From positions 1 through 43,490 of the forward strand of contig JALSMA010000053.1 in NCBI GenBank assembly GCA_026988015.1: DNA of 43,490 bases. The letters run 5' to 3'. The notes beneath the pieces are model-generated. The model was given only the letters and a program-made list of their open reading frames with translations. It was not told the origin of the DNA and did no database searches. Each line of letters opens with the position of its first letter. The first letter of the stretch is position 1. Shown here piece after piece: positions 22,476 to 33,687 of this stretch. Both the position numbers and the translations under genes were made by a program. This DNA comes from Desulfobulbaceae bacterium. Lineage in GTDB: Bacteria; Desulfobacterota; Desulfobulbia; Desulfobulbales; Desulfocapsaceae.

Positions 22476-22576
22476 GATAGTCGGGTCCTGTACAATTAAG
22501 GATCATGAACTCCGCCAGGTCCGGAAGGAAGCAACGGCAATGAACCCCTTGATGTGTTACAGGGTGCCCGGCTATC
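22476..22576 (+). ncRNA. ffs: Signal recognition particle RNA (4.5S, small bacterial type)
   Basis: The diagnostic apical domain CCGCCAGGTCCGGAAGGAAGC followed by AACGGC is present, carrying the GGAA tetraloop and the Ffh-binding asymmetric loop. The ends pair as GATAGTCGGG with CCCGGCTATC, giving a hairpin of about 101 nt, and TCTTTT follows. There is no Alu domain. The RNA pairs with Ffh to target nascent membrane proteins. Its place just ahead of dnaX is common in proteobacteria. Confidence 0.94.
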
Positions 22577-22668: not shown

Positions 22669-24405
22669 ATGTCCTATTTGGTTCTTGCCAGAAAATCACG
22701 TCCCCAGGATTTTGACCAGGTTGTGGGCCAGACGCCAGTTGTCAAAACCCTGAAAAACAGCATTATACGAAAGAGGATCGCCCACGCCATTCTCTTCTCA
22801 GGTGTTCGCGGGGTAGGCAAAACCACCCTTGCCCGGATTATGTCCAAGGCAATCAACTGTGAACAGATAGAAAACGGTAACCCCTGTAACTCTTGCCAAT
22901 CCTGCATCGAGATAACTGCCGGATCCTCCCTTGACCTCTATGAAATAGATGGTGCTTCCAATCGTGGAATCCAGGAAATCCGTGAGCTCAAAGAAAAGAT
23001 ACGATTCCTCCCAACATCCTCCAAGTACAAAGTTATCATAATAGATGAAGTTCACATGCTCACCACCGAGGCCTTCAATGCCCTGCTCAAAACATTAGAA
23101 GAGCCCCCGGACCATGTCTACTTTATGTTTGCGACAACAGAGCTGCATAAAATTCCCATTACAATCCTCTCACGCTGCCAGCGCTATGAACTGAAAAGGG
23201 TTTCTGCTGAAGATCTTGCTGCTCATTTCAGGAGATTATCAGAGCAAGAGGGACTGAACATTGATGATGCTGCATTAAACCTGATTGTCAGGGAATCAGA
23301 GGGATCTGTCCGTGATGGTTTAAGTCTCCTGGATCAGGTATTCTCCTACGGTGAAAAAGATATATCTGTGGAGGACGTTATTGATGTCCTGGGCCTTGTC
23401 TCCCGTGACATCATCCTTTCCATCACCAGAGGGCTCCTTGACAAAGATTCAGGCAAGGCACTCCTTGCCCTGGAAGAAACATTTTCCTTCGGGGTAGATC
23501 TGAAACGATTCACCAGCGACCTGCTAAACGCATTTCGCACACTCATTCTCTGCAAAATCAAAGGCTGTCAGGAACTGATCAACATCCCCCCACAAGAGTT
23601 CGCTGAGTTCAAGGAACTTGCAGAATTACACAGTCACAGTACTATCCACATGAAGTTAAACATGCTTATGCAGGGGGTTGAAGAGATGCGCTACTCATCC
23701 CAGCCAAGGCTTGTGCTTGAAAACTGTTTTTTAAAAATCGTCCAAACTGATGAGGTGATTCCAGTCTCAAAGATACTTGGAAAACTCGATTCACTTATGT
23801 CCCAAAGTGATAATCCACCTGAAAATACTGCAGCAACTGTTCAGAAAAAAAAAATTCCTGAGCAACCAGAGAAACTTGAGACAAAATGTTCCCCCGTAAC
23901 CCCGCGCCCTACCTCACCTACTCCACAAGCTGAGATTGAAGAGCCTCCCCTGCCGGTGGAAAAGCAACCCACGCCCACAGTTCCCACCCCGAATTCCAAA
24001 TCAGTTCTACGTCCTCACCAGCGTGATGTGCGCAGAGACTGGGCTGGATTTATTGATCATGTAAAAGACCGTAAACTGTGGATGGCCCAGGATCTTCAGC
24101 GGGCTGAAAGAGTAAAAGAAAATGAAGGTGAACTGCACCTTCATTTCAGCGATCAGGCAAACTGTACCCTGCTCTGTCAAAAGGATAATGCCAGGCTTCT
24201 CACCGAATTTGTTCTTGATTTTTTCCAGAAGGATTTGAAACTTCGTTTTATCACTCCGGACAAGGAGGAAAGCAAAGCAACAGACAGTGAAGACAGCCCC
24301 CATAAATTACGACAGAAACTAGCCAATGACCCTCTGGTTCTCATGGCTACAGAAATATTCAACGGCCAGATCGGCGATATCCGGGTTGGTCCCAGAAGTC
24401 GATAA
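22669..24405 (+). CDS. dnaX: DNA polymerase III subunits gamma/tau
   Basis: The 578-residue tau form is the clamp-loader ATPase of the replisome. Walker A is GVRGVGKTT with K51, a four-Cys zinc module follows (CEQIENGNPCNSCQSC), and Walker B is IIIDEVHML; the sensor 1 region TTELHKIP and SRC motif are present. The AAA+ and collar domains end near 365. A Pro/Thr/Glu-rich linker (about 375-445) precedes a tau-specific C-terminal domain that would contact polymerase alpha and DnaB. A run of ten A residues (23845-23854) lies in the linker with a TGA stop two codons downstream in the -1 frame, so a 397-residue gamma form is probably made by slippage. It is followed by ybaB and recR in the conserved order. 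Confidence 0.96.
   Translation: MSYLVLARKSRPQDFDQVVGQTPVVKTLKNSIIRKRIAHAILFSGVRGVGKTTLARIMSKAINCEQIENGNPCNSCQSCIEITAGSSLDLYEIDGASNRGIQEIRELKEKIRFLPTSSKYKVIIIDEVHMLTTEAFNALLKTLEEPPDHVYFMFATTELHKIPITILSRCQRYELKRVSAEDLAAHFRRLSEQEGLNIDDAALNLIVRESEGSVRDGLSLLDQVFSYGEKDISVEDVIDVLGLVSRDIILSITRGLLDKDSGKALLALEETFSFGVDLKRFTSDLLNAFRTLILCKIKGCQELINIPPQEFAEFKELAELHSHSTIHMKLNMLMQGVEEMRYSSQPRLVLENCFLKIVQTDEVIPVSKILGKLDSLMSQSDNPPENTAATVQKKKIPEQPEKLETKCSPVTPRPTSPTPQAEIEEPPLPVEKQPTPTVPTPNSKSVLRPHQRDVRRDWAGFIDHVKDRKLWMAQDLQRAERVKENEGELHLHFSDQANCTLLCQKDNARLLTEFVLDFFQKDLKLRFITPDKEESKATDSEDSPHKLRQKLANDPLVLMATEIFNGQIGDIRVGPRSR
23845..23861 (+). promoter_or_regulatory. Candidate programmed slippage site in dnaX
   Basis: Frame 0 reads CAG AAA AAA AAA ATT CCT GAG. 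After a -1 shift on the ten-A run the reading becomes AAT TCC TGA, with the stop at 23859-23861. The product would be 395 normal residues plus Asn-Ser. Position and length match the gamma/tau switch known in E. coli (ribosomal) and Thermus (transcriptional slippage). Confidence 0.65.
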
Positions 24406-24505: not shown

Positions 24506-24826
24506 ATGGATATAAACTCTATCATGCAGCAAGCCCAGCAGATGCAGCAGAAAATGGCCACCATCCAGGAAGAACTGAAAACAAAAACTGCCACCGGCAC
24601 CGCCGGTGGTGGTATGGTCACAGTGACAGCCAATGGAAACAGTGAAATCATCTCCATTGATCTTGAAAAGGAGATGATCACAGTTGATGAAAAAGAAATG
24701 CTTCAGGACTTGATTGTCGCAGCCACCAATGATGCCCTGAGAAAAGTTAAGGTCATGAGCAAAGAAGAAATGGCAAAACTCACCGGAGGGATGAACCTGC
24801 CCGGCGTCTCGAACCTCTTTTCCTGA
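24506..24826 (+). CDS. ybaB: YbaB/EbfC family nucleoid-associated protein
   Basis: A 106-residue small dimeric DNA-binding protein. It starts MDINSIMQQAQQMQQKMATIQEEL, contains the conserved Gly-rich turn GGGMVTVTANGNSEI and ends NLPGVSNLFS. It is probably involved in nucleoid organisation or recombination support. The ATG at 24506 is chosen because AGGA lies eight bases upstream and the family begins at this methionine; an upstream in-frame ATG at 24440 would add 22 non-conserved residues. It lies between dnaX and recR as in most bacteria. Confidence 0.95.
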   Translation: MDINSIMQQAQQMQQKMATIQEELKTKTATGTAGGGMVTVTANGNSEIISIDLEKEMITVDEKEMLQDLIVAATNDALRKVKVMSKEEMAKLTGGMNLPGVSNLFS

Positions 24827-24867: not shown

Positions 24868-25476
24868 ATGTCACCACAAGTCATCCCCGATGCACTGGAT
24901 CGTCTGATACAGGACCTCACAAAGCTTCCCGGCATAGGAAAGAAGACTGCGTCCCGACTGGCCCTAAACATTCTTAGAAGGCCAGCTACAGAAGCGCGCG
25001 AACTGGCGGCAGCACTAAATGATCTTCACAATGCGATCCAACTCTGCTCAAGTTGCTTCACCTTTTCCGAAAGTGACCCCTGCGCTATCTGTGCTGACCT
25101 TAAACGTGACTCATCGCTTATTTGTGTTGTGGAACAGCCCGGAGATCTCCTGGCCATAGAAAAGGCAGGGAATTATCTTGGACATTACCACATCCTCCAC
25201 GGAGTTCTCGCCCCGATGGATGGGATTGGGCCCAATGAGATAAAAATAACAGAACTTGAGGCTAGGCTGAACAGCGGTATCGTCACTGAGGTTTTCATTG
25301 CAACAAGTTCAACAGTTCCGGGTGAAGCAACTGCCAATTATCTCATTGATAGACTGCAGAACAGAAATATCCTTGTGAGTCGTCTTGCATGTGGTATTCC
25401 CATGGGCATGGATATTAAATATGCTGACAGGCACACTCTTGCACGTGCCATTGAGAGTCGATCACAAACCCGCTAA
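24868..25476 (+). CDS. recR: Recombination mediator protein RecR
   Basis: A 202-residue protein that acts with RecO (and RecF) to load RecA at gaps. It shows the helix-hairpin-helix (LPGIGKKTASRLA), a four-Cys zinc finger (CSSCFTFSESDPCAIC), a Toprim domain (ICVVEQPGDLLAIEKAG...YHILHG) and the C-terminal LACGIPMGMDIKYADRHTLARAI. Length and order are standard. It starts 41 bp after ybaB and closes the dnaX operon. Confidence 0.96.
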   Translation: MSPQVIPDALDRLIQDLTKLPGIGKKTASRLALNILRRPATEARELAAALNDLHNAIQLCSSCFTFSESDPCAICADLKRDSSLICVVEQPGDLLAIEKAGNYLGHYHILHGVLAPMDGIGPNEIKITELEARLNSGIVTEVFIATSSTVPGEATANYLIDRLQNRNILVSRLACGIPMGMDIKYADRHTLARAIESRSQTR

Positions 25477-33565: not shown

Positions 33566-33642
33566 CGGAACGTGGCGCAGTCTGGTAGCGCACTTGTCTG
33601 GGGGACAAGTGGTCGGAGGTTCAAATCCTCTCGTTCCGACCA
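33566..33642 (+). tRNA. tRNA-Pro(GGG)
   Basis: A 77-nt tRNA with encoded CCA. The acceptor CGGAACG pairs with CGTTCCG, discriminator A. The anticodon loop CTGGGGG gives anticodon GGG (33600-33602) and the T arm is GGAGG-TTCAAAT-CCTCT. Its 3' end marks the border of an accessory island: an eroded integrase gene pointing toward it begins within 20 bp. Confidence 0.97.
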
Positions 33643-33650
33643 GTAATTTC

Positions 33651-33687
33651 AAGCACTTAAGGTAACACCTCAAGTGCTTTTTTTTTT
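33651..33687. terminator. Rho-independent terminator after tRNA-Pro
   Basis: AAGCACTT (33651-33658) pairs with AAGTGCTT (33672-33679), with an inner GGT/ACC, and runs into nine T residues. The last codons and stop of the integrase remnant on the other strand lie within it. Confidence 0.88.

Follow-up and report, generated by a model that had tools for sequence, protein, structure and literature searches.

Introduction

The closest described counterpart of the locus reported here is dnaX of Thermus thermophilus, a single open reading frame (ORF) with a run of nine A's on its sense strand and nearby stops in both non-zero frames; tau is read in frame, while gamma is described as the product of slipped transcripts (PMC1088944, PMC5009743). 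The RNA-DNA hybrid held by Thermus RNA polymerase is given as 9–10 bp, and polymerase slippage in bacteria as efficient in vivo at nine A's or T's (PMC5009743). A second source puts the requirement at 7 or more T's and even more A's (PMC6260861). Systems of the Thermus type are further marked by mRNA that is heterogeneous in A-run length and by tau and gamma in a ratio of about 1:1.

In Escherichia coli, gamma is made by a -1 ribosomal frameshift at an A_AAA_AAG heptamer at codon 428, in a gene whose longest A-run has six A's, and the hairpin of this frameshift site is known. Another architecture comprises two ORFs with poly(A) at their junction, where tau needs a change of frame; ten A's were recorded in 9 of 17 two-ORF dnaX genes (Antonov et al. 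2013, PMC3711429). Outside dnaX, polymerase slippage on long A-runs has been proposed or shown to restore the frame of frameshifted genes in Blochmannia and Buchnera, AT-rich symbionts described as having many such tracts (PMC3017870). Our searches of the open-licence literature on dnaX, slippage, and Desulfocapsa or the deltaproteobacteria found no prior report of dnaX slippage in the order to which the present genome belongs.

Results and Discussion

Organization of the dnaX Locus

The window, meaning the whole 43,490-nucleotide stretch of DNA that was analysed, encodes the DNA polymerase III subunit gamma/tau on its forward strand (dnaX, 22669–24405) as a single ORF of 578 amino acids (aa), which corresponds to tau (TIGR02397, 439 bits). 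Pfam matches were obtained to DNA_pol3_delta2/AAA, to the lid, and to domain III (PF12169, residues 232–369). On the same strand, a bacterial small SRP RNA gene lies just 5' of dnaX (22479–22576; Rfam RF00169, 76.9 bits) and stands outside the mechanism considered here, while ybaB/ebfC (24506–24826; TIGR00103) and recR (24868–25476; TIGR00615), both above cut-off, lie on the 3' side. The order dnaX-ybaB-recR is common to the window and E. coli K-12. Elsewhere in the window, a 5' truncated 5S rRNA occupies positions 1–95 at the contig start (Rfam RF00001), so that an rRNA operon probably marks this end of the contig, and a T10 (33678–33687), perhaps within a terminator or spacer, is located soon after a tRNA-Pro (33566–33642).

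An earlier note on this DNA had pointed to ten consecutive A's in dnaX, preceded by CAG and followed by TTCCTGAG. The run is present exactly so on the forward strand at 23845–23854, where it comprises codons 393–395 and the first base of codon 396 (phase 0), with AAA AAA AAA ATT encoding KKKI. As the note had proposed, it is positioned in the linker after the ATPase/collar part, starting 24 codons past the end of the PF12169 match. This linker, between domain III and the tau C-terminal part, spans 23776–24015, from the Pfam end at residue 369 to a tau part beginning at about residue 449; its limits are alignment boundaries and its ends approximate.

Four bases 3' of the run, the -1 frame is closed by a TGA (23859–23861), which would be reached with 11 A's or by a -1 ribosomal shift. 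Translation to this stop predicts the gamma of 397 aa ending in KKKNS that the note had described, whereas its masses of about 43 and 64 kDa for gamma and tau have to be replaced by the computed values of 44.6 and 65.4 kDa. What the note had missed is a TAA (23897–23899) 42 bases 3' of the run, which closes the +1 frame as well. This second stop matters because polymerase slippage feeds both other frames; it would be reached with 9 or 12 A's and would give a predicted gamma of 409 or 410 aa, while 10 or 13 A's would give tau of 578 or 579 aa. The predicted gamma C-termini are KKKNS or FLSNQRNLRQNVPP.

In its layout, the window gene resembles dnaX of T. thermophilus: a single tau ORF, a sense-strand run of at least nine A's located between the gamma and tau-specific parts, and stops soon 3' of the run in both non-zero frames (TGA +4, TAA +42). 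It differs in carrying ten A's, in belonging to another phylum, in being known here from sequence, and in that, across an entire order, the run turns up again at changing positions and in changing phases. With the E. coli system it shares the gene, the position in the linker, and a gamma end just past the shift site. Unlike the E. coli gene, however, it has A10 followed by T, and its downstream region holds no hairpin above shuffles. The two-ORF architecture does not apply to the window gene, which is one ORF, although three relatives discussed below (G010, G336, and G037) have a split dnaX.

The absence of an obvious stem-loop and of an upstream Shine-Dalgarno (SD)-like stimulator, both reported in the earlier note, was borne out. 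In the search for a downstream hairpin in the window, 106 nt folded at -14.2 kcal/mol (z = +0.75), and in the first 59 run-bearing genomes of the order, on which the folding scores and SD counts are based, the mean z was +0.07 downstream and -0.33 upstream, where 10% of genomes fell below -2, with no structure above shuffles on average. The window value and the 59-genome means thus ruled out RNA structure on either side of the run as a stimulator. No SD-like element was seen by eye about 10 nt upstream in the window (AATACTGCAGCAACTGTTCAG), and an SD-like 5-mer was found upstream in 6 of the 59 genomes. An E. coli-type heptamer was likewise ruled out in the window dnaX, where no in-register A_AAA_AAG occurs and A_AAA_AAA is followed by ATT rather than by AAG. 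Anticodons read for 28 loci of 39 tRNA matches, together with three tRNAs in the window, revealed tRNA-Lys with both UUU and CUU, a combination that has been suggested as maybe relevant to the use of polymerase slippage by Thermus (PMC5009743).

Chance Expectation and a Control Run

Taken alone, the A10 of the window dnaX is weak evidence. Synonymous reshuffling with the protein fixed and the gene's own codon usage retained produced a run of nine or more A's in the gene with p of about 0.35, and the significance of the run therefore rests on the relatives. By arithmetic from the 36 runs of at least 10 A or T on both strands of the 3.15 Mb genome, a 282-nt linker would be expected to hold about 0.0016 runs on its sense strand. 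When the reshuffling was applied to the first 175 genomes, runs of nine or more A's were expected versus observed in 6.7 versus 17 genomes of the genus (n = 17), 7.2 versus 37 of the family (n = 66), 0.6 versus 5 of the order (n = 16), and 0.7 versus 2 of the phylum (n = 76). We relied on this test instead of the count of AAA and AAG lysine codons within runs, which is partly circular because the runs are defined by their A's.

Across the genome, a codon model with independent and identical draws predicted 39 runs of A10 or longer in 3 Mb of coding sequence, whereas three sense-strand A10 runs could be placed in genes, namely in dnaX, in proB, and within the opening codons of a gene called trpD-like by eye. 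As the model is crude and the gene calls were made by eye, this difference suggests, in a rough way, that A10 is avoided in genes. Ribosome sliding could be a cause too, and avoidance of AAA repeats has been tied to ribosomes (PMC4363877).

The second of these runs (G000:C76:29681-29690; L185 2482-2491) was used as a control. It lies on the sense strand about 75 codons into a gene with AA_kinase and PUA domains, which on these Pfam matches is probably proB. Twenty proB loci from 19 genomes were retrieved, of which L310 was unreadable at the site and one of the remaining 19 was the window genome's own. The A10 was absent from 18/18 readable relative loci, none of which had a run above A5. On account of this absence, A10 runs are evidently not kept in the genus in general, while the one in dnaX is. 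The proB run itself may slip and waste transcripts, or may be a recent change or an assembly error.

A-Runs in the dnaX Linker of Relatives

The named relatives found with the window DnaX came from Desulfocapsa and from other Desulfobulbaceae, with metagenome assemblies making up many of the records; many of the genomes surveyed are likewise draft or metagenome assemblies. Several of these named loci belong to genomes that also appear in the survey, and they were kept apart from its counts. The survey linker was defined as the residues aligned to 355 through about 449 of the window DnaX. Within the family, 84 of 93 genomes were matched and, with G105 left out as it is split over contigs, 17 genomes of the same genus and 66 others were used. 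For the order outside the family, 96 of 103 matched genomes were retained (G251, G254, G255, G259, G263, G301, and G327 were left out). The rest of the phylum was represented by 76 of 136 matched genomes, made up of 23 best hits and 53 picked by hand, approximately one per family, before their runs were seen. All counts refer to matched genomes, with G033 counted once.

The earlier note had named relatives devoid of the run and the -1 stop as an outcome that would refute its interpretation. On the contrary, A9–A12 was found in the dnaX linker of 17/17 genomes of the same genus (A10 in 14, A9 in two, A12 in one), in 37 of the 66 other family genomes, and in 46 of the 96 from the order outside the family (5/16 in the first sample and 41/80 in the second). 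This amounts to 100 of the 179 order genomes examined versus 2 of 76 in the rest of the phylum. The remaining 79 order genomes were run-less, most of them without any substitute among those looked for. In the first 354 codons of the same 179 dnaX genes, the longest A-run was A7.

Linker runs of five or more A's in the 179 order genomes numbered 95 for A5, 40 for A6, 21 for A7, and 7 for A8, then 36 for A9, 59 for A10, 7 for A11, and one for A12. The dip at A8 and the peak at A10 are unlike the decay of random runs. The longest runs of the 100 run-bearing genes were distributed over codon phases 0, 1, and 2 as 27, 48, and 25, and every phase had its minimum at A8 and an excess at 9 or 10. Specifically, the counts for A7, A8, A9, and A10 were 8, 1, 5, and 22 in phase 0; 4, 2, 26, and 19 in phase 1; and 9, 4, 5, and 18 in phase 2. 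Both other frames were closed within 60 nt in 81 of the 100 run-bearing genes, whereas among the 79 genes without a run the figure at matched positions was 16%, and among 74 such genes from the rest of the phylum it was 22% (positions taken from the first sample); the nearer stop tended to be the -1 one (medians 10.5 versus 18 nt). In contrast to the AT-rich symbionts mentioned above, the runs persist here in genes of about 53% G+C and with both frames closed.

Two further patterns were seen among the linkers. Three of them hold two long A-runs each (A10 and A9 in L007 of G003, A9 and A9 in L041 of the cultured Desulforhopalus singaporensis DSM 12130, A11 and A9 in L134 of G088), in different codon phases in L007 and L041. 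In one family of the order, nine loci (L322, L325, L335, L337, L341, L344, L348, L349, and L355; 55–61% G+C) have A10 followed directly by a -1 frame TGA, with the +1 frame closed 5 nt past the run in six of them and 8–26 nt past it in three.

To trace the history of the run, a quick maximum-likelihood tree was built from the N-terminal 354 residues; 65 of its 176 inner branches are weak, and change counts are therefore approximate. Run presence called for at least 31 gains or losses, 17 of them forced by starred branches, and in the 100 genes that carry a run, codon phase must have changed at least 21 times. Phase is also strongly clustered and inherited; phase 1 accounts for 35 of the 41 runs of the second sample (80 order genomes). 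We read this as a run site that is apparently inherited within lineages, yet free to move.

Split and Substitute Sites

The closest relative (G010, the same contig as JAJRQL010000094.1; L019/L038) carries A10 at the same codon, with a net loss of one base just past it that places tau in the -1 frame; the 0 frame is closed 35 nt beyond the A's. Between the tau halves of G010 and the window, first, second, and third codon positions show 4, 3, and 31 changes, and this preponderance of third-position changes indicates that the G010 half is still selected as protein. In G336 (L370/L402), from another family of the order, A9 is followed by a 0-frame stop 20 nt later and the tau half lies in the -1 frame. 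Compared with the in-frame tau half of G317, it shows 7 changes at first, 1 at second, and 20 at third codon positions. Five genomes of the G336 genus have A11 and an in-frame tau, and one has A8. Both genes, with A10 and A9, respectively, show the two-ORF layout described by Antonov et al. (2013, PMC3711429), in which tau needs a frame change, and each split comes from one assembly. Of the 80 second-sample loci, those of G336 and G334 ended before the tau half, and none of the others had it out of frame. The tau half of G336 was then located in the other frame and that of G334 on another contig, so that G334 is counted neither as in frame nor as out of frame.

Other sites were found among the run-less genomes. 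The dnaX of G037 (L179) is split at C10 (codons 391–394), and its tau half is out of frame yet conserved; this C10 could be a place of slippage on C's or an assembly error. Three of the 79 run-less relatives (G071, G060, and G292; a raw count) have an in-register A_AAA_AAG and, no more than two codons on, a -1 stop; in G071 (L177) and G060 (L181) this is a TGA one codon later. Just past the heptamer of G060 lies an 8-bp stem whose folding energy is not below shuffles. The bases after the G071 heptamer (GATGAACCGGCAGTCGCC) closely resemble E. coli AGTGAACCGGCAGCCGC (L261). In most run-less genomes, gamma may be absent or made otherwise; that of Caulobacter is described as arising by proteolysis (PMC5009743).

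Proposed Mechanism and Alternative Explanations

The best-supported reading, which we consider probable, is that the A10 is a programmed transcriptional slippage site of the Thermus type that would yield gamma. A pure rA:dT stretch filling the 9–10 bp RNA-DNA hybrid would let the transcript realign, with A's gained or lost. Transcripts with 10 or 13 A's would give tau (578/579 aa), whereas those with 9, 11, or 12 would run into TAA or TGA just past the run and give a gamma of 409, 397, or 410 aa, which would retain the ATPase and collar domains without the tau C-terminus. Selection would then keep about 9–11 A's in the linker irrespective of codon phase, and both other frames closed nearby. 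Slippage in the cell, as well as the gamma product with its amount and role, are predicted here from the run, its stops, their recurrence, and the accompanying statistics, and the slippage length thresholds are those of E. coli and Thermus. Run length, phase, closure, and the pattern of the tau half together favour Thermus-type slippage over a ribosomal event. The preference for transcriptional slippage already expressed in the earlier note thus appears sound, as it fits the comparative tests better than its rivals.

Production of gamma by translation, similar to E. coli, with the ribosome slipping -1 on A_AAA_AAA or sliding on poly(A) and stopping at the TGA at 23859, seems unlikely to us. 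It can draw on the in-register A_AAA_AAA of the window, on the generally nearer -1 stop, and on the three run-less relatives with A_AAA_AAG close to a -1 stop; moreover, A-runs are reported to make ribosomes slide, and even three AAA codons to yield some truncated product (PMC4363877). Since any A10 contains A_AAA_AAA in every phase, we dropped phase-independence as an argument against ribosomal slippage and used the length-by-phase counts. The heptamer needs nine A's in phase 0, eight in phase 1, and seven in phase 2, yet the excess is at A9 or A10 even where shorter runs would suffice (A8 2, A9 26, and A10 19 in phase 1; A7 9, A8 4, A9 5, and A10 18 in phase 2). A -1 ribosomal site needs a -1 stop only, whereas the +1 frame is closed too. 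The lack of a hairpin or SD stimulator and the presence of both tRNA-Lys species also weigh against it, and K3 reporters in an E. coli cell-free system are described as giving robust sliding and truncation at A11 but little at A9 or A10 (PMC4363877).

The two remaining explanations do without a programmed second product. That the run persists by chance or because its lysines form a basic patch in the linker, with tau alone being made, is very improbable: KKK is encoded in 57 of the 100 run-bearing linkers and the synonymous chance for the window gene is about 0.35, yet KKK occurs in 2/79 and KK in 25/79 run-less linkers, and neither the closure of both frames (81/100 versus 16%), the A8 dip and A10 peak, nor the non-conservation of the proB A10 would be expected. 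Protein-level selection for KKK was accordingly rejected as the main cause on the order-wide linker survey. We give hardly any credence to phase variation at the DNA level, by which replication slippage would alter the homopolymer length and switch tau on or off. Homopolymers do mutate, tau is out of frame after the run in G010 and G336, and the A9 of G336 contrasts with A11 in five genomes of its genus. However, these are the only 2 run-bearing genes with a readable tau half that are out of frame; the run of G010 is unchanged at A10, and a change from A11 to A9 alone would not produce the frame of G336. Stops in both frames are unnecessary for a switch, and dnaX is expected to be essential.

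Implications for the Order

Transcriptional slippage at dnaX, a mechanism known from Thermus, is thus probably found here in another group, as judged from sequence comparison. For the order as a whole, we lean slightly towards a broader reading, in which polymerase slippage would set the tau:gamma ratio and a run of 9–11 A's would be selected for its effect on the polymerase alone, disappearing and arising again at other positions and in other frames. Tau would then move into and out of frame in the genome, as in G010 and G336. An E. coli-like ribosomal site would have taken the place of the run in lineages such as those of G071 and G060, and a C10 with tau out of frame in that of G037.

These results bear on an unsettled question, namely whether bacteria other than enterobacteria and Thermus make gamma as a genuine product under selection. 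With 100 of the genomes examined carrying a run, 79 lacking one, and the run itself shifting frames, the order offers a natural experiment in which selection acting on RNA polymerase can be told apart from selection acting on the ribosome or the protein, and cultured strains allow direct testing. For annotation, the locus serves as a warning that a single-ORF dnaX can hide a second product and that a split dnaX is not always broken. Most bacteria are held to keep no dnaX frameshift signature (PMC3290774); if the order-wide reading is true, gamma would be far more widely maintained than this current view of most bacteria implies.
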